A DNA stretch of 37,868 nucleotides from a virus. This document shows, one piece after another, positions 4,901 to 25,407 of this stretch. Position 1 is the first letter of the stretch, and each line of letters starts with the position of its first letter. The position numbers and the translations under genes were made by a program. The notes under the pieces are model-generated. The model saw nothing but the letters and a program-made list of their open reading frames with translations. It was not told where the DNA came from and searched no databases. Where the stretch lies: positions 1-37,868 of the IMG/VR virus record IMGVR_UViG_3300023237_000036; one strand, given 5' to 3'.

Positions 4901-4924
4901 AAAAGGGGAAGCGTGAACTTCCCC
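4899..4924 (-). terminator. Intrinsic terminator of the leftward transcripts
   Basis: On the - strand a 7-bp stem GGGGAAG/CTTCCCC with a 6-nt loop is followed by six T. It lies downstream of the last - strand gene (4990). In + orientation no T-run follows, so it acts on leftward transcription only. Confidence 0.75.
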
Positions 4925-4941
4925 CATATAGGCAACAACAG

Positions 4942-4968
4942 GGCTCCTTTAAGGGAGCCTTTTTTTTT
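4942..4968 (+). terminator. Intrinsic terminator of the late + strand region
   Basis: Stem GGCTCC/GGAGCC with a short TTTAAG-type loop, immediately followed by nine T. It ends the + strand late region. It lies beyond the leftward terminator, so the two convergent transcripts overlap by about 60 nt before each one stops. Confidence 0.85.
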
Positions 4969-18690: not shown

Positions 18691-19620
18691 TTATCTTACT
18701 TGATTGGCTACGCCTTGATGATAGTAAAACATAAAGTCATTAGTCTTTAGAAAGTTTCTAACTTCAAAATCCCTATCCTCATTACTTCTTATAGGGTCTC
18801 TCTTAGCAGATTCAATCTTATAATCTTTACTATCTCTTTTACCTATCTTAACAGCACGTTCATTGTGTGTACTGTAGTTTGTTAGTGCATTATACACATC
18901 ATAGAGTGTTGATTTATTTGCATCAGTTTCTAATACATTATTTAGTAAGTGGTACTTACCATCAGAATTATTAGAGAACTTTCTAAATAACTTCTCAACA
19001 TCTTGTCTACCTAACTCTACACTTTGGTACACCTCTACTTTATTTTTCATATCACTAAAGGTTGTGTTAAGATTCTTTAGTTTAGTAAATGAATCATCAA
19101 GATTAAAGTTAAGTGTATGTCTTTTCATAGATGAATTAATATCTTCAAATGATTTCATACCATTTGCACATACTAATCTTAAGAACATTGACCTTAACTG
19201 ATAGATAATTGATGCGTCATAGCTAGATATAACTTCAATACCAAACTTTAACTTGTCATTTTCATCATGACTCATAGAGTAAGTACCAAAATCTCCAGTA
19301 TCTCCAAACAGAATCCTAAGTTTCATGTAGTTTAAGTCTGGTGACACATTAAATTTAATAGATGTATCACTTATATCTATCTCATACTTATCTAATGCAG
19401 TAGATAGCCCAGATAATATTCTTTCATAGGGTATCAACTGGTAGTTAGCACCATGTAGATGTATTGCTTTGTTGTTTTCAGTATCTAATACAGCATAGCT
19501 AGGTTTATTTAGCGTAAATGTACTCTCTACTGAGTCTAATTGACGCAGTTCAACAGGCGTAATGCTATGTTGGTACTGGTCTGCGTACTGTTCTTTTAGT
19601 TTTGCAACTAATGCACTCAT
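18691..19620 (-). CDS. DUF932-like protein, 309 aa
   Basis: Matches the phage/plasmid DUF932 type: an N-terminal substrate-like region (YAVLDTENNKAIHLHGANYQL), a mid-protein FGIEVISSYDAS and the hallmark LRSMFLRLVCANGM, followed by helices. The biochemical role of DUF932 is unknown; it is frequent in mobile elements near DNA metabolism genes. An aaggag site precedes ATG 19620. Expression comes from promoter 19681-19709, whose start point is embedded in a terminator hairpin. The gene before it (334 aa) has a nearly identical leader. Confidence 0.75.
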   Translation of the reverse strand: MSALVAKLKEQYADQYQHSITPVELRQLDSVESTFTLNKPSYAVLDTENNKAIHLHGANYQLIPYERILSGLSTALDKYEIDISDTSIKFNVSPDLNYMKLRILFGDTGDFGTYSMSHDENDKLKFGIEVISSYDASIIYQLRSMFLRLVCANGMKSFEDINSSMKRHTLNFNLDDSFTKLKNLNTTFSDMKNKVEVYQSVELGRQDVEKLFRKFSNNSDGKYHLLNNVLETDANKSTLYDVYNALTNYSTHNERAVKIGKRDSKDYKIESAKRDPIRSNEDRDFEVRNFLKTNDFMFYYHQGVANQVR

Positions 19621-19641
19621 ATCTTCTCCTTATTGTTGGTT

Positions 19642-19678
19642 AAAAAAAAGGCACTACTAAAATTAATTAGTAATGCCT
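19642..19678 (-). terminator. Intrinsic terminator overlapping the DUF932 promoter start
   Basis: Stem AGGCATTACTA / TAGTAGTGCCT (one wobble) followed by eight T at 19642-19649. The 5' arm begins 2 nt after the -10 hexamer of promoter 19681-19709, so the expected start (about 19674) lies within that arm. Confidence 0.8.
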
Positions 19679-19680
19679 TT

Positions 19681-19709
19681 AATATACTATACTATTGCTA
19701 GTATGTCAA
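19681..19709 (-). promoter_or_regulatory. Promoter fused to a terminator (DUF932 gene)
   Basis: -35 TTGACA (19704-19709), 17-bp spacer, -10 TATATT (19681-19686). After the terminator T-run the leader reads AACCAACAATAAGGAG, almost the same as in front of the 334-aa gene. Confidence 0.8.
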
Positions 19710-19725
19710 CTGATATCTCTTATAG

Positions 19726-20730
19726 TTAGTTAGCCATTCGCATAGCTTCTTTATAAGCGAGTATCTTTTCTTCTCTAGTCTGCTTAGGTTTATCTATGTT
19801 ATCTAGTGCGTCTGCTAGGTCATCAATAGATACTACAACGTCCATGCCAATTTTATCAGCAAGTATCTCATCATCAATTTTCCAATTGACTTTACTGTGA
19901 GAAGCAAACTTCTCTACTTGAGAGAACTTAGTCATAGTCTTTATACCTTGCTCAAATCTATTAACCTTAGCTACAATAGATTCAATCCATTTAGTATGTG
20001 ACTGCACTACATTCTGCTTTGCTTGTATCATCATCTCAAACTTTTGAAACTCTAAGTCTGAGCATGGGATAGCTCTTGAACGACACCCACCTGTACCAAT
20101 AATTTGCAATACATAATTACTATTCCAATCTTGATACAAATTACTACCACCTGTTTTACCATTTAGAAAGTAATCATTCTCATTTCTACATGTTGACAGG
20201 TAGGGATTGTTGTCCTGTCTATGGACATTACCTTCTTTTTTTAGGTCATGTTCAATGTTACAGTCTGGATTAAGTCCTACTGCTTTCATTTCCTCACGAT
20301 ACATAGCATAAGGAAAGTTCTTACCATTGTTAGAACTACCACTACCATAACGTGAGCCATAATCTCCAGTAATACTGCCATCTAACTCAAATGAAAAGTG
20401 TTTAGACTTCTCTACTTCATCACCATATGAGTCAAGTACCTTTGGTGCGTCAGTTACTTTGAAATAAAAACAACTATCATCACCTACTGCATTGATAGTG
20501 TTATGTTTTCTCTGTAACTGTTGCAAAGTATCTACATCTTCTAATGGAAATCTACGTTGCACTACTTTTGTTGCAGTTTCAAACGCAGAAGCAATAGAAC
20601 TTGTAGCTTCCTCTCTTGTTTGATTGTATTTATCTTTCAAATCAGTTGAAAGACTTTCACAATGTCTACGATAATCGTTAGTCAAAGACTTACGTTTACC
20701 TGCATTGAGCCTTATCTCTTTTTGTTCCAT
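19726..20730 (-). CDS. Early-type hypothetical protein, 334 aa
   Basis: No known domain. The N terminus is charged and helical (about 1-70); a central region is rich in Gly/Ser/Asn with Cys (SGSSNNGKNFPYAMY, NNPYLSTCRNENDYF, GTGGCRSRAIPC); the C-terminal 120 residues are helical and end in a charged EEKILAYKEAMR segment. The single-copy gene sits beside the DUF932-like gene and has the same promoter-terminator leader, so the two are probably expressed together early. A takeover or DNA-interaction role is possible, but nothing in the sequence proves it. An aaggag site precedes the ATG. Confidence 0.75.
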   Translation of the reverse strand: MEQKEIRLNAGKRKSLTNDYRRHCESLSTDLKDKYNQTREEATSSIASAFETATKVVQRRFPLEDVDTLQQLQRKHNTINAVGDDSCFYFKVTDAPKVLDSYGDEVEKSKHFSFELDGSITGDYGSRYGSGSSNNGKNFPYAMYREEMKAVGLNPDCNIEHDLKKEGNVHRQDNNPYLSTCRNENDYFLNGKTGGSNLYQDWNSNYVLQIIGTGGCRSRAIPCSDLEFQKFEMMIQAKQNVVQSHTKWIESIVAKVNRFEQGIKTMTKFSQVEKFASHSKVNWKIDDEILADKIGMDVVVSIDDLADALDNIDKPKQTREEKILAYKEAMRMAN

Positions 20731-20751
20731 GAGTACTCCTTTTGTTGGGTT

Positions 20752-20788
20752 AAAAAAAAGACACCACCCAGATGTCTGAGTGATGCCT
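20752..20788 (-). terminator. Intrinsic terminator overlapping the 334-aa gene promoter start
   Basis: Stem AGGCATCACTC / GGGTGGTGTCT (several G-T wobbles), loop AGACATCT, then eight T at 20752-20759. The expected start of promoter 20791-20819 (about 20784) lies inside the 5' arm. Confidence 0.8.
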
Positions 20789-20790
20789 AT

Positions 20791-20819
20791 ATAATATACT
20801 AATGTTATTGTTGTGTCAA
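20791..20819 (-). promoter_or_regulatory. Promoter fused to a terminator (334-aa gene)
   Basis: -35 TTGACA (20814-20819) directly after the upstream stop codon, 17-bp spacer, -10 TATTAT (20791-20796). The sequence from the -10 to the ribosome-binding site is clearly related to that at 19681-19709. Confidence 0.8.
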
Positions 20820-21056
20820 CTAGCTAAGCCAAGAGTCTTCAGCTTTAATAGTCTGTTTATCCAATCTTCCTACTGAATTAATAAGAGTTTCTCTATTAAT
20901 TTTAAGCCATGAATTTAAACAGTTTAAACTACAGGCTATATCATGGTAGTAAGAATTAACTTTGTTAGACTGATAATATTTATTGCCTTTACTACCACGT
21001 ATTTGATTCTGATTTCTTTTATAACAACATTCTTTATTCTGACACCACTCACTCAT
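20820..21056 (-). CDS. Cys-rich zinc-finger-like protein, 78 aa
   Basis: N-terminal MSEWCQNKECCYKRNQNQIRG and mid-protein YHDIACSLNCLNSWLKIN give two Cys pairs about 35 residues apart, the layout of a treble-clef or zinc-ribbon finger. The intervening stretch is basic and Tyr/Asn-rich. A nucleic-acid-binding role is inferred. It overlaps the upstream gene by 8 nt. Confidence 0.7.
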   Translation of the reverse strand: MSEWCQNKECCYKRNQNQIRGSKGNKYYQSNKVNSYYHDIACSLNCLNSWLKINRETLINSVGRLDKQTIKAEDSWLS

Positions 21057-21462
21057 TGATAACTCCTCGCTTGATTAGATTTTTAAGAGCAGTAAATTTT
21101 ACCTTCTCAAACATAACAACTGTTATGCTATCATTTACCTCTAAGTGATTGATTTTATACACTTTTTTACCAACACTAAACCACTTCAAAGTAGCAACAG
21201 AAATATTTCTGGGTGCTTTTTTATCTAGGTCATGTGCTAGTATGTACTCATCAGCATTGGTAGTTCTTTCTTTACCTTTACGTTTATACATAGTGCCATC
21301 AGTTTGTTTCCAAGTAGAACGATTTACTAAATCAAATCTACCTGTCCGATAGTCTCCATTTTTTTTAACAAAACCTGCACGAAACTTTTTCGCTTTGGTT
21401 TGTGTCATTAAAGCATAAAGATAATCTGAAACTTTACCAACTTGTATGTCTGTTTGTTTCAT
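21049..21462 (-). CDS. Basic beta-rich hypothetical protein, 137 aa
   Basis: Starts MKQTDIQVGKVSDYLYALMT and continues with basic strands (AKKFRAGFVKKNGDYRTGRF, MYKRKGKERTTNADEYILAHD, VATLKWFSVGKKVYKINHLE). Proteins with this pattern in phages are sometimes annotated as small beta-barrel (SH3-like) folds; I infer a nucleic-acid-binding barrel at most. Its 5' leader is about 190 nt long and contains the promoter-terminator element and the 91-nt structured RNA. Confidence 0.7.
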   Translation of the reverse strand: MKQTDIQVGKVSDYLYALMTQTKAKKFRAGFVKKNGDYRTGRFDLVNRSTWKQTDGTMYKRKGKERTTNADEYILAHDLDKKAPRNISVATLKWFSVGKKVYKINHLEVNDSITVVMFEKVKFTALKNLIKRGVINE

Positions 21463-21489
21463 ATATTTTCCTATTAGTTAATTGTATTA

Positions 21490-21580
21490 GGGTGTAGCCT
21501 CAACTCTCATGCTATGTTCTGGATTTACAGCTTAGATTTACAACTCCTTACTAACATAGCCATAGTAAATTACTACACCC
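21490..21580 (-). ncRNA. 91-nt structured leader RNA candidate
   Basis: A perfect 8-bp outer stem (GGGTGTAG/CTACACCC at 21573-21580 and 21490-21497) encloses a perfect 8-bp inner stem (GCTATGTT/AACATAGC at 21553-21560 and 21511-21518) and, between their 5' arms, a small AGTAA/TTTACT hairpin. The innermost loop has TGTAAATC twice. It lies 28 nt before ATG 21462, in a 193-nt stretch without a convincing gene. It lacks tRNA features. Possible riboswitch, thermosensor or phage small RNA. Confidence 0.5.
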
Positions 21581-21624
21581 CCCTTTAATATCTAGTGCCA
21601 TGTTACTTAAAGACTAGGCTCAAC

Positions 21625-21658
21625 AAAAAAGGGCAACCAACTCTCGTTGATTACCCTT
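21625..21658 (-). terminator. Intrinsic terminator overlapping the promoter of the 137-aa gene
   Basis: Stem AAGGGTAATCAAC / GTTGGTTGCCCTT with a GAGA tetraloop, then six T. The 5' arm starts 2 nt after the -10 of promoter 21661-21689, the same arrangement as at 19642 and 20752. Confidence 0.8.
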
Positions 21659-21660
21659 AC

Positions 21661-21689
21661 ATAGTATATGATTTATTTGTCTGTGTCAA
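21661..21689 (-). promoter_or_regulatory. Promoter fused to a terminator (137-aa gene)
   Basis: -35 TTGACA (21684-21689), 17-bp spacer, -10 TACTAT (21661-21666). The -35 is made of the last codons of the 65-aa gene and its stop codon lies in the spacer. Confidence 0.75.
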
Positions 21690-21870
21690 CAGGCTTACAG
21701 TAAGTAAGACCTATGACTTGACCTGTGGGTGTGTATATATTTTCTTCTATGGTGTGTTCTTTTATGTAGTCATTACATTCTTGATAAGTATTAAACTTAT
21801 GTTTAACTGTATGGAAATTACCCATACGATTATCAAAGTCAGTAAATAAAAATAATAATAATTCAATCAT
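21673..21870 (-). CDS. Small phage hypothetical protein, 65 aa
   Basis: N terminus MIELLLFLFTDFDNRM is strongly hydrophobic, then KHKFNTYQECNDYIKEH and TPTGQVIGLTYCKPVDTDK. This resembles a family of short phage proteins with a strand-helix-strand core. No good Shine-Dalgarno sequence is seen; a TATAAT lies 10-15 nt before the ATG, so the mRNA could be nearly leaderless. Confidence 0.65.
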   Translation of the reverse strand: MIELLLFLFTDFDNRMGNFHTVKHKFNTYQECNDYIKEHTIEENIYTPTGQVIGLTYCKPVDTDK

Positions 21871-21913
21871 TGTGTTGCTATGATTATAAGACTAGCCAAC
21901 CAAACACTCACAC

Positions 21914-21946
21914 AAAAAAAAGGGATTGCCCAAATGGACAACCCCC
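21914..21946 (-). terminator. Intrinsic terminator after the 95-aa gene
   Basis: Stem GGGGTTGTCC / GGGCAATCCC with loop ATTT, followed by eight T. Between the 95-aa stop (22023) and this hairpin, an extended -10 (TGCTATACT at about 22010-22018) is also visible. Confidence 0.8.
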
Positions 21947-22022
21947 TTTTGTTTTTGAATACAACTCTTGCTACTACCCATGTGCTTATAAGCCACACAA
22001 GTAATGAGAGTATAGCAGTCAA

Positions 22023-22310
22023 TTAATTACCACTACCTTCTACAAATTGATTAGTGTCAAGAAACTCTTGTTGTTCTTGCAACCTATTTTCATCTAATGG
22101 TTGAGATATATATGTGTGTTTATCCCAATCATCTGTTTGCACATGTAAAAGATAATTAGTTAAAGCATCATTAAGTTTTATTTGAAGTCTTTTTAACTCA
22201 ATGATTTTTTCTTTATCAGGACTTGGATTGTTTTCCTGCCAAGCCATGATGTTTATAGTGCATACCCTTACTTGCCTACGCAATTTAGGTATGCGTTTGT
22301 CATTATCCAT
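22023..22310 (-). CDS. Hypothetical charged protein, 95 aa
   Basis: MDNDKRIPKLRRQVRVCTIN is followed by a long helix (DKEKIIELKRLQIKLNDALT) and an acidic, Gln-rich tail (LQEQQEFLDTNQFVEGSGN). Predicted helical and soluble. AAGGAAAACC precedes the ATG. Promoter 22342-22370 lies 31 nt upstream, and a 10-bp palindrome TGATTAATCA lies near its start point, a possible operator. Confidence 0.7.
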   Translation of the reverse strand: MDNDKRIPKLRRQVRVCTINIMAWQENNPSPDKEKIIELKRLQIKLNDALTNYLLHVQTDDWDKHTYISQPLDENRLQEQQEFLDTNQFVEGSGN

Positions 22311-22341
22311 ATGGTTTTCCTTGTTTGATTAATCAGTTCGT

Positions 22342-22370
22342 AGTATATATTAACTGCTACTCTATGTCAA
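22342..22370 (-). promoter_or_regulatory. Sigma70-type promoter for the 95-aa gene
   Basis: -35 TTGACA (22365-22370), 17-bp spacer, -10 TATACT (22342-22347). The -35 lies in the last codons of the 53-aa frame. Confidence 0.75.
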
Positions 22371-22518
22371 GTAGTTTATCTAACTCGTCTGTTAGCTGTC
22401 TGATTTTTGAAAGGTCTGAGTAGACTTTTTTATCTTCGAGATATTTTATAAGTAGGCTATGCAATAGCTTAGATAACCTAAGGTGTCTTGATTTTAATGC
22501 TAATTTTTTATCTATCAT
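22357..22518 (-). CDS. Small helical protein, 53 aa
   Basis: ATG 22518 to TAG. A Lys/Leu-rich helical peptide (MIDKKLALKSRHLRLSKLLH, ending IRQLTDELDKLLDIE). No ribosome-binding site is visible; the start is preceded by a structured leader with two hairpins. The continuous open frame and its Leu periodicity support coding, but the call is tentative. Confidence 0.5.
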   Translation of the reverse strand: MIDKKLALKSRHLRLSKLLHSLLIKYLEDKKVYSDLSKIRQLTDELDKLLDIE

Positions 22519-22527
22519 AATTTTTTA

Positions 22528-22600
22528 ACGGCTGACATGACCACAAAGTACACATCAGCCGTATTAGTTATAGTGCCATAACTTTGAGAGGGAGTGGCAC
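22528..22600 (-). ncRNA. Two-hairpin leader before the 53-aa gene
   Basis: Hairpins GTGCCA/TGGCAC (22573-22600) and ACGGCTGA/TCAGCCGT (22528-22562) follow each other in the 92-nt gap after the 78-aa gene. Neither is followed by T residues on this strand, so they do not look like terminators. An AGTTAT/ATAACT pairing across the first hairpin gives an alternative fold. Confidence 0.4.
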
Positions 22601-22610
22601 TTGGCTAATT

Positions 22611-22847
22611 TTATTTAACAGTAGGTTGTGAGAAAAAATCTTGAATAGTTTTTTTAAGATTTGCCTCTACCTCATCTGCTGATTTGTTAAGACTTGTTAG
22701 TTTTTCTGCCATACCCTTAATAGTATTCTGAGTATCTTGATGCAGTTCTAAGTTGTCTTTTATTTTCTTCTGCCTTTTCTCCCTATCAAATCGTATAGCT
22801 TTGTTTCGGGATTGCACAAAATCATGTGCGTCTGTTTGTTCTGCCAT
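22611..22847 (-). CDS. Charged helical protein, 78 aa
   Basis: Start set at ATG 22847 (MAEQTDAHDFVQSR) with AAGGAG 6 nt before it; an in-frame TTG upstream coincides with the -35 box and is rejected. The protein is a charged helix (RKQ-rich 18-35), then TQNTIKGMAEKLTSLNKSAD, and a Pro tail (SQPTVK). Probably a coiled coil. Function unknown. Confidence 0.7.
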   Translation of the reverse strand: MAEQTDAHDFVQSRNKAIRFDREKRQKKIKDNLELHQDTQNTIKGMAEKLTSLNKSADEVEANLKKTIQDFFSQPTVK

Positions 22848-22875
22848 TAGTTTCTCCTTTGTTTGATATGTATTC

Positions 22876-22904
22876 ATAATACCATAGTGTATTTGTTGTG
22901 TCAA
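22876..22904 (-). promoter_or_regulatory. Sigma70-type promoter for the 78-aa gene
   Basis: -35 TTGACA (22899-22904), 17-bp spacer, -10 TATTAT (22876-22881), in the normal order terminator-promoter-gene. Confidence 0.8.
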
Positions 22905-22915
22905 ATAGTACCGAC

Positions 22916-22953
22916 AAAAAAAAAGCCCTACCGATATTGCTACCGATAGGGCT
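22916..22953 (-). terminator. Intrinsic terminator with GCAA tetraloop
   Basis: 13-bp stem AGCCCTATCGGTA / TATCGGTAGGGCT capped by GCAA and followed by nine T. It terminates the 23-aa micropeptide transcript. Confidence 0.9.
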
Positions 22954-22976
22954 AGTGCTGTTCACTTTTCATATAC

Positions 22977-23048
22977 CTATATTCCCATTAGACTTATTAA
23001 CATACCTAAACACAGCCACATGACAGCTACATATAAAATGCTTTTCAT
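22977..23048 (-). CDS. Single-TM micropeptide, 23 aa
   Basis: ATG 23048 after a strong GGAAGGAGAGAAT. The peptide is one hydrophobic helix (MKSILYVAVMWLCLG, then MLISLMGI). It has its own promoter (23085-23113) and its own terminator (22916-22953), a complete monocistronic unit, which strongly supports expression despite its size. Confidence 0.65.
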   Translation of the reverse strand: MKSILYVAVMWLCLGMLISLMGI

Positions 23049-23084
23049 ATTCTCTCCTTCCATAATTAAATTAAACATAATCTC

Positions 23085-23113
23085 AGCTTACAGGGTAGTA
23101 TTAGCTGTGTCAA
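23085..23113 (-). promoter_or_regulatory. Promoter for the 23-aa micropeptide
   Basis: -35 TTGACA (23108-23113), 17-bp spacer, weaker -10 TAAGCT (23085-23090). Confidence 0.55.
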
Positions 23114-23123
23114 GTGGAAGGAT

Positions 23124-23162
23124 AAAAAAAAACGAGAAGGCAATTTTAATTTTGCCCCCTCG
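23124..23162 (-). terminator. Intrinsic terminator after the TM-peptide operon
   Basis: Stem CGAGGGGGCAA / TTGCCTTCTCG (one or two wobbles) followed by nine T. It ends the transcript of the 81-, 49- and 27-aa genes. Confidence 0.85.
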
Positions 23163-23186
23163 CAATTTTGTAAGTTAGTATTTTTG

Positions 23187-23270
23187 TTATAAACCTACTG
23201 ATTTACTGAATAGATGTAGCAATAAATAACTTATTGCCATGATTGATATAAATATTAATGCTGTTTTCAT
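23187..23270 (-). CDS. Single-TM micropeptide, 27 aa
   Basis: ATG 23270 overlaps the previous stop (ATGA). The peptide is a hydrophobic helix (MKTALIFISIMAISYLLLHLF) with a short SKSVGL tail. Coupled to the 49-aa gene. Function unknown; a holin-like or membrane-stress role is possible. Confidence 0.6.
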   Translation of the reverse strand: MKTALIFISIMAISYLLLHLFSKSVGL

Positions 23271-23416
23271 TTTGTTTTTAACTTTGGTTTAACTTTATTA
23301 ATGGGCTTGATGTACTTTCTATTTTGCTCATCAATAAAAAGTTGATTAGCTTTCATTAAATAAACACCTATTAAAACAATTAATAAGCAACCAATTATAA
23401 AAGATAATTCAATCAT
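23267..23416 (-). CDS. Single-TM micropeptide with basic tail, 49 aa
   Basis: ATG 23416 overlaps the stop of the 81-aa gene (ATGA, 23413-23416). One N-terminal TM helix (MIELSFIIGCLLIVLIGVYL) is followed by a cytoplasm-type tail rich in Lys and Pro (KYIKPINKVKPKLKTK). Function unknown. Confidence 0.65.
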   Translation of the reverse strand: MIELSFIIGCLLIVLIGVYLMKANQLFIDEQNRKYIKPINKVKPKLKTK

Positions 23417-24884: not shown

Positions 24885-25378
24885 GTATCTGTACTATAAA
24901 TCAAATGAAGCTCTATTTTAGGTATGATTATCATACTACTATGATTTAACTAGGTACTAATTAAATTAACACTAGGTTAACATTGGGTTGTGTATCTTAC
25001 AAAATTTTACACTCCCCCCAACTCTCCCCAAACGAAACCACAAGATATCCCCCAGATAATTTCTAAGTTTTACACGAGGGAATATTTTTAAGGGGGCAGG
25101 CAAGGGCACTAGGGGGGTACTACATATATACATATAGGATCGTACTAAAATCCCCAATTCCCCTGTAAACCACCCTGTGGCTACATACTAGGTTACAATA
25201 TTCTGTAAATCTCCTGGCTATATGCTAGGGTGTTCCCTAGGGGGTATGTATATTTAAGTATATATTATATATAAACCCCCCCGTGTAACCTTAATTACAT
25301 TATACACCCACTTCTACCTTTTGTCAATGATTATTTTTAACAATAATGCTTTAATATAAAAATAATTTAAATTAGTAC
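24885..25378. other. Non-coding region with G/C tracts, candidate origin or packaging site
   Basis: About 490 bp without a credible gene. In a very AT-rich genome it holds many C or G runs of 5-7 (for example at 25013-25019, 25092-25096, 25113-25118, 25276-25282), repeated CTAGG words and two tandem imperfect repeats. It lies just upstream of the late promoter and about 1 kb before the terminase genes, where a pac/cos site or origin would be expected. None can be identified from sequence alone. Confidence 0.45.
25163..25229 (+). repeat. Two tandem imperfect 27-30-bp repeats
   Basis: Copy 1 at 25163-25192 and copy 2 at 25203-25229 share CTGTAAAyC and TGGCTAyATrCTAGG (13 of 15 bases identical in the latter), with a 40-bp period. 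Candidate iterons or terminase-binding sites. Confidence 0.6.
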
Positions 25379-25407
25379 TTGACAAAAGTTATATTTGTGT
25401 GTATACT
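25379..25407 (+). promoter_or_regulatory. Main rightward (late) promoter
   Basis: -35 TTGACA (25379-25384), 17-bp spacer, -10 TATACT (25402-25407). It is followed by a leader of about 130 nt with the inverted repeats GCATG-CATGC (25447-25460) and GGGAA-TTCCC (25495-25513). It is the only promoter found for the whole late operon. Confidence 0.8.

Follow-up and report, generated by a model that had tools for sequence, protein, structure and literature searches.

Why would the predicted start point of a phage promoter lie inside a terminator? Ordinarily, tandem genes are separated by an intrinsic terminator and then a sigma70-type promoter. The elements that we describe here have the same parts (a GC-containing stem, a U-run, TTGACA/TATAAT boxes, and a setting of tandem genes), but the hairpin comes after the -10 box and contains the predicted start. 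They lie in an HMO-2011-type phage record, IMGVR_UViG_3300023237_000036 from IMG/VR; the whole stretch that we analyzed (positions 1 to 37,868, or 37,868 nucleotides) will be called the window. The nearest isolate is Pelagibacter phage HTVC033P, whose portal protein is 73% identical and whose DNA is 77% identical over parts of the region with the elements. The three elements (A, B, and C) are all on the minus strand, in an early region with small tandem genes.

The original prediction was that three promoters in this region each run into a strong terminator, and we found all three. Promoter A (19681..19709, minus strand) has TTGACA at 19709-19704 as its -35 box, a 17-nt spacer, and TATATT at 19686-19681 as its -10 box; it is identical or near-identical in the related contigs L010-L024 and L033. 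Its hairpin has 14 bp (19680-19647) and leads into T8 (19649-19642), for a span of 19642..19680 (minus strand), and the predicted start (+1) is the A at 19674, within the 5' arm. The gene behind it (18691..19620, minus strand) encodes a 309-aa DUF932 protein (Pfam PF06067, E=3.7e-11). Promoter B (20791..20819, minus strand: TTGACA, a spacer of 17, TATTAT) is also present in HTVC033P (L001, 21107), and its TTGACA abuts the stop codon of a 78-aa ORF that ends at 20820. Hairpin B, with 13 bp (20788-20759) and T8 (20759-20752), spans 20752..20788 (minus strand) and has the A at 20784 as its predicted +1. It precedes a gene for a 334-aa protein (19726..20730, minus strand) with no match in PHROG or Pfam. 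Promoter C (21661..21689, minus strand: TTGACA, a spacer of 17, TACTAT) overlaps the 3' end of a 65-aa ORF (21870-21673). Its hairpin of 13 bp (21658-21629) and T6 (21630-21625) spans 21625..21658 (minus strand), with the G at 21654 as predicted +1.

T-tails of 6-8 had been noted and are present (T8, T8, and T6). Two copies were also thought to be related, and indeed AGGCATYAC is common to the 19.7 kb and 20.8 kb sites; the site at 21.7 kb belongs to a separate AAGGG family that is conserved in relatives. A gap of 2 nt between the -10 and the stem is correct for B and C (stems from 20788 and 21658) but not for A, where the stem adjoins the -10 directly at 19680 and an extra A-T pair brings it to 14 bp.

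At all three sites, the boxes have 10-11 of 12 matches to the sigma70-type TTGACA/TATAAT, 17 nt apart, and would probably be recognized by a sigma70-type polymerase of the host. The predicted start, at the 7th nucleotide after the -10, is a purine. In sense RNA, the full hairpins are predicted to fold at -17.9 to -18.7 kcal/mol, with z scores of about -6, and the U-run directly follows the stem, as in intrinsic terminators. Read along the minus strand, each junction consists of the upstream gene's stop codon, TTGACA, a spacer of 17 nt, TAnnnT, 0-2 nt, a stem of 13-14 bp, and T6-T8. The ribosome-binding site (RBS) and the next gene come directly after the T-run at A and B; at C, a leader of 160 nt intervenes.

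The leader after C (21463..21624, minus strand) contains a long stem, GGGGTGTAGT/GCTACACCC, with a variable interior, and is followed by the RBS of a 137-aa gene (21462-21049). Its flanks, AATCAAGGGGGGTRGT ... ACYACCCCGAA, are conserved in the window, L144, L029, L032, L191, and L001, and the interior varies in length and sequence. Its folding z is -2.0 in the window and reaches -2.7 in one relative. The leader has no match in Rfam, and neither does anything else in 19500-23300 of the window above the gathering score. It is possible that this is a structured leader or a small RNA.

The remaining TTGACA promoters of the window lack such a downstream hairpin; at two of them, a terminator begins about 78 nt upstream of the point where the -10 ends. 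The window has other signals as well. A strong terminator lies between tandem genes at 21917-21950 (minus strand), with no linked TTGACA promoter and with the gene start about 50 nt on. Back-to-back terminators on opposite strands lie at 4904-4961, where gene directions converge, and near-perfect divergent promoters, TTGACA-17-TATAAT (minus strand) and TTGACA-17-TATACT (plus strand), lie at 25299-25407.

Related phages carry the same geometry. We gathered related contigs by protein and pattern searches and considered the distinct contexts that match TTGAC-N16-18-TAnnnT. The 5' arm of a terminator begins at +1 or +2 from the -10 in 25 of 292 distinct contexts in a first survey and in 46 of 412 (+2 in 42, +1 in 4) in a larger one. 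Another 3 of the 412 were called at +5, with pairing that extends outward to +2, which gives 49 element contexts with the stem starting at +2 in 42 and at +1 in 4. Upstream of the -10, terminator arms form one cluster at -42 to -47 and another at about -59 to -82; there are almost none between these clusters and +1/+2, or elsewhere downstream. An independent search for stems that ignored the T-run had the same +2 peak (496 contexts, with 61 that have a T-run at +2). As controls, seven scrambled -35 hexamers gave 2 matches altogether in the related contigs. Across all of IMG/VR, the +2 pattern occurs in 87 stretches, and 66 of the 74 distinct sites that we re-analyzed have a good stem. The same search with a scrambled -35 returned 1 stretch, which has no stem, and with the arms shifted to +10 it returned 14 stretches, 3 of them with stems. 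The related phages are HTVC033P-like, HMO-2011-type pelagiphages, in which the boxes of the promoter are conserved and the -10 and stem geometry persists in dozens of distinct sequences. Overall, the promoter-hairpin arrangement is real, conserved, and unusual in its geometry.

The element is neither universal in this group nor confined to it. It is absent from HTVC103P, HMO-2011, and CRP-1, so we reject its presence throughout the HMO-2011 group. We also reject the idea that it is a rule of the host, because a loose form of the pattern has no match in 14 reference phages (three other pelagiphages and 11 others). A species-wide scan of bacteria gave scattered matches, few with stems and none titled SAR11. 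Among unrelated phage contigs, the +2 geometry is found after a stop codon and before an RBS in G002/G004/G005 (before a gene for a ClpP-like protease), G006 (two sites), G007 (two sites), and G001/G008/G010. This suggests a convergent origin, although the numbers are small: about six lineages, as compared to three stems at the single shifted offset that was tested.

Which RNA uses the hairpin? With the usual start, at the 7th nucleotide after the -10, the first four bases of the stem (-4 to -1) lie upstream of +1. Across 30 distinct arm pairs, they covary as strongly as the rest of the stem, with paired variants such as AGGC/GCCT, AGAC/GTCT, AAAC/GTTT, AAGG/CCTT, and AGAT/ATCT. At -3, -2, and -1, pairing is 97-100% canonical with 33 double-change cells, and none of 2000 shuffles reach the observed values (these counts are from related sequences and from stems that were chosen for pairing). 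Orthologous copies of the site in front of the 309-aa gene have GGC/GCC in most contigs and AAC/GTT in L018, L020, and L033. Pairs that would be absent from the promoter's own RNA seem to be under selection, which suggests that the hairpin acts in RNA coming from upstream, and the swap before the 309-aa gene suggests the same. The covariation of the lower stem is our best evidence, and it points to a terminator of read-through transcription.

We propose that each site is a fused terminator-promoter, or "self-insulating promoter," between co-directional genes; from the sequences, we give this a probability of roughly 55%. A polymerase from the upstream gene would copy the complete hairpin of 13-14 bp, together with the U-run, and would terminate. 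One that initiates at the promoter would begin partway along the 5' arm, with about 4 bp of the stem's base left out. Its RNA would retain a weaker 5'-terminal stem-loop of about 9 bp, 2-3 nt short of the U-run, which would mostly fail to terminate, and the downstream gene would be expressed. Since the residual stem-loop would have no unpaired 5' end, it may also protect the mRNA. At these junctions, the upstream gene on the same strand ends at or near the -35, and an RBS and ATG come after the T-run.

When both versions of the transcript are folded, the promoter-started RNA is predicted to be less stable, with a change from about -18 to between -6 and -11 kcal/mol. (The values for the full hairpin and from the predicted +1 are -17.9 and -5.8 kcal/mol for A, -18.7 and -11.1 for B, and -18.4 and -10.0 for C.) In the +1 RNA of all three sites, the predicted stem ends 2-3 nt before the U-run and the first base is paired. 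On a simple, home-made score of hairpin minus hybrid, the median is -11.1 for read-through RNA and -7.0 for +1 RNA (for the hairpin, -18.3 and -10.2). In family C, this score does not separate the two RNAs. By these models, escape of the promoter's RNA is plausible, and the case is strongest for the 19.7 kb site. In many copies, the register of the -10 is ambiguous, since a TATATT/TATAAT-like hexamer can also be placed at a spacer of 15; using that hexamer would shift the start 2 nt upstream and would cut only about 2 bp.

Some orthologues complicate the picture. Before the 334-aa gene, L122-124 and L129 have the promoter and the full stem with only T3, and L131-133 have the promoter and the full stem with no T-run. 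One further copy, in L032, also has the promoter and the full stem without a U-run. Thus, the stem is sometimes retained without the U-run, in three lineages. Conversely, L027 and L032 have a terminator but no visible promoter before the 309-aa gene. (The sequence upstream of this gene in L025, L027, and L032 is a terminator, GGTTAGGCGAG-AAAT-CGCCTAGCC-T5, and then the RBS, with no recognizable promoter.) The loss of the U-run and the promoterless terminators weaken a pure insulator model, as termination alone would not suffice to explain the hairpin. The original suggestion of a compact insulator-promoter is therefore partly supported: the covariation of the lower stem and the one-strand junctions (stop, promoter, hairpin, RBS, gene) favor it, and it is the reading that best fits these sequences, but it needs more than termination.

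We considered several alternatives. It is unlikely, but conceivable, that the hairpin is a promoter-proximal attenuator. The promoter's RNA would end at about 31-35 nt unless a Q- or AlpA-like factor of the phage or host releases the polymerase, and the short RNA might have its own role. Proximal terminators that are released by an antiterminator are known (PMC7969949), and the residual stems would still fold (-6 to -11 kcal/mol). As in the phage elements, the terminators of Q- or AlpA-released systems lie shortly after the promoter and before the gene (PMC6606751, PMC7969949). However, the entire hairpin is downstream of the start in the known cases (in the AlpA cases, terminators begin 54 and 26 nt downstream of the start; PMC7969949), whereas the 5' arm here would begin about 4 nt before a canonical start. 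We found no Q- or AlpA-like protein among the early proteins that we searched, many of which have no family. An attenuator would not depend on the pairs at -4 to -1, which nevertheless covary. The same covariation upstream of +1 is left unexplained if the sites are a source of RNAs of about 30 nt, as had also been suggested, although such RNAs, which would measure 31-35 nt if they extended through the T-run, are possible.

We give a similarly low probability to a 5'-terminal stem-loop that stabilizes the mRNA, with the U-run being secondary. This would fit the predicted +1 RNA, whose very first base is paired and which therefore has no 5' overhang, and it would fit the stems without a U-run in three lineages. 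But most copies have T6-T8 directly after the stem, and the pairs at -4 to -1 would be free to drift unless transcription starts further upstream than usual. Less probable still is an intercistronic terminator whose leakiness tunes the relative expression of two co-transcribed genes, with the promoter as an added internal start and an overlap that only saves space. Intergenic gaps are very short, and the terminators that lack a visible promoter in some orthologues precede the same gene; but a loose arrangement would scatter, and instead the stem is locked at exactly +2 and the promoter and stem are conserved together. A repressor that binds the inverted repeat as DNA is very improbable: there is dyad symmetry across +1, but the T-run is on one side only, and we reject this operator since the sequences of the arms change while pairing persists. 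Chance in AT-rich DNA is hardly credible, even though weak promoter-like matches are about as numerous in the window as in shuffles, and is rejected by the control hexamers, the shifted geometry, and the conservation.

If we return to the fused terminator-promoter, the same phages have a second kind of fusion. In 27 distinct elements, TTGACA is inside a hairpin (in the loop and 3' arm) and the U-run is the spacer between the -35 and the -10, as in CCCTGTGTATGC-TTGACA-TACATGGGGTTTTTTTA-TATACT from L001. In these, the start falls after the terminator. Copies are in L001 (23581 and 22951, minus strand), L145, L121, L122, and others, with none in the window. That one genome overlaps the two signals in opposite ways suggests a common pressure for compact insulation of short transcription units, which fits our proposal.

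A related logic is known from Tn10/IS10, where the transposase is protected from outside promoters by an RNA structure that is complete only in read-through RNA, as the internal promoter starts inside one arm. The difference is that the RNA structure in Tn10/IS10 hides the ribosome site, while the phage hairpin would terminate transcription. Also, the stem-loops in the early region of phiC31 terminate without poly-U. Like the elements described here, they are repeated hairpins of an early region, and they are a precedent for stems without a U-run. We know of no overlap between the phiC31 stem-loops and a start site, and our loose pattern is absent from the phiC31 genome. In the literature that we searched (open-licence papers), we found no precedent with this geometry, and the paper describing the HTVC033P group does not mention promoters or terminators.

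Two papers (PMC11347151; PMC6978380) describe recycling, in which termination is followed by re-initiation at a nearby promoter. By analogy, a polymerase released at the phage U-run would be left about 30-60 bp away from the promoter of the same element, and recycling might possibly be an added benefit. Tentatively, and with much less confidence than in the fusion itself, we can imagine that one segment is a full terminator for the upstream polymerase and an escape-competent, 5'-protected leader for its own starts, that the terminated polymerase is recycled one-dimensionally to the overlapping promoter, and that this evolved more than once in phages.

The fused terminator-promoter is built of ordinary parts, and what is unusual is the geometry. 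In these phages of the ocean, which infect SAR11-type bacteria, a start signal and the stop hairpin of the upstream gene repeatedly share a few bases, and one stretch thereby probably stops a passing polymerase and lets a new one pass. If this is true, whether one sequence stops or permits transcription depends on where the transcript starts. It would be a very compact and factor-free insulator, usable in synthetic circuits, and it would explain how these marine phages, which are abundant but little studied, can transcribe their many small early genes as separate units.
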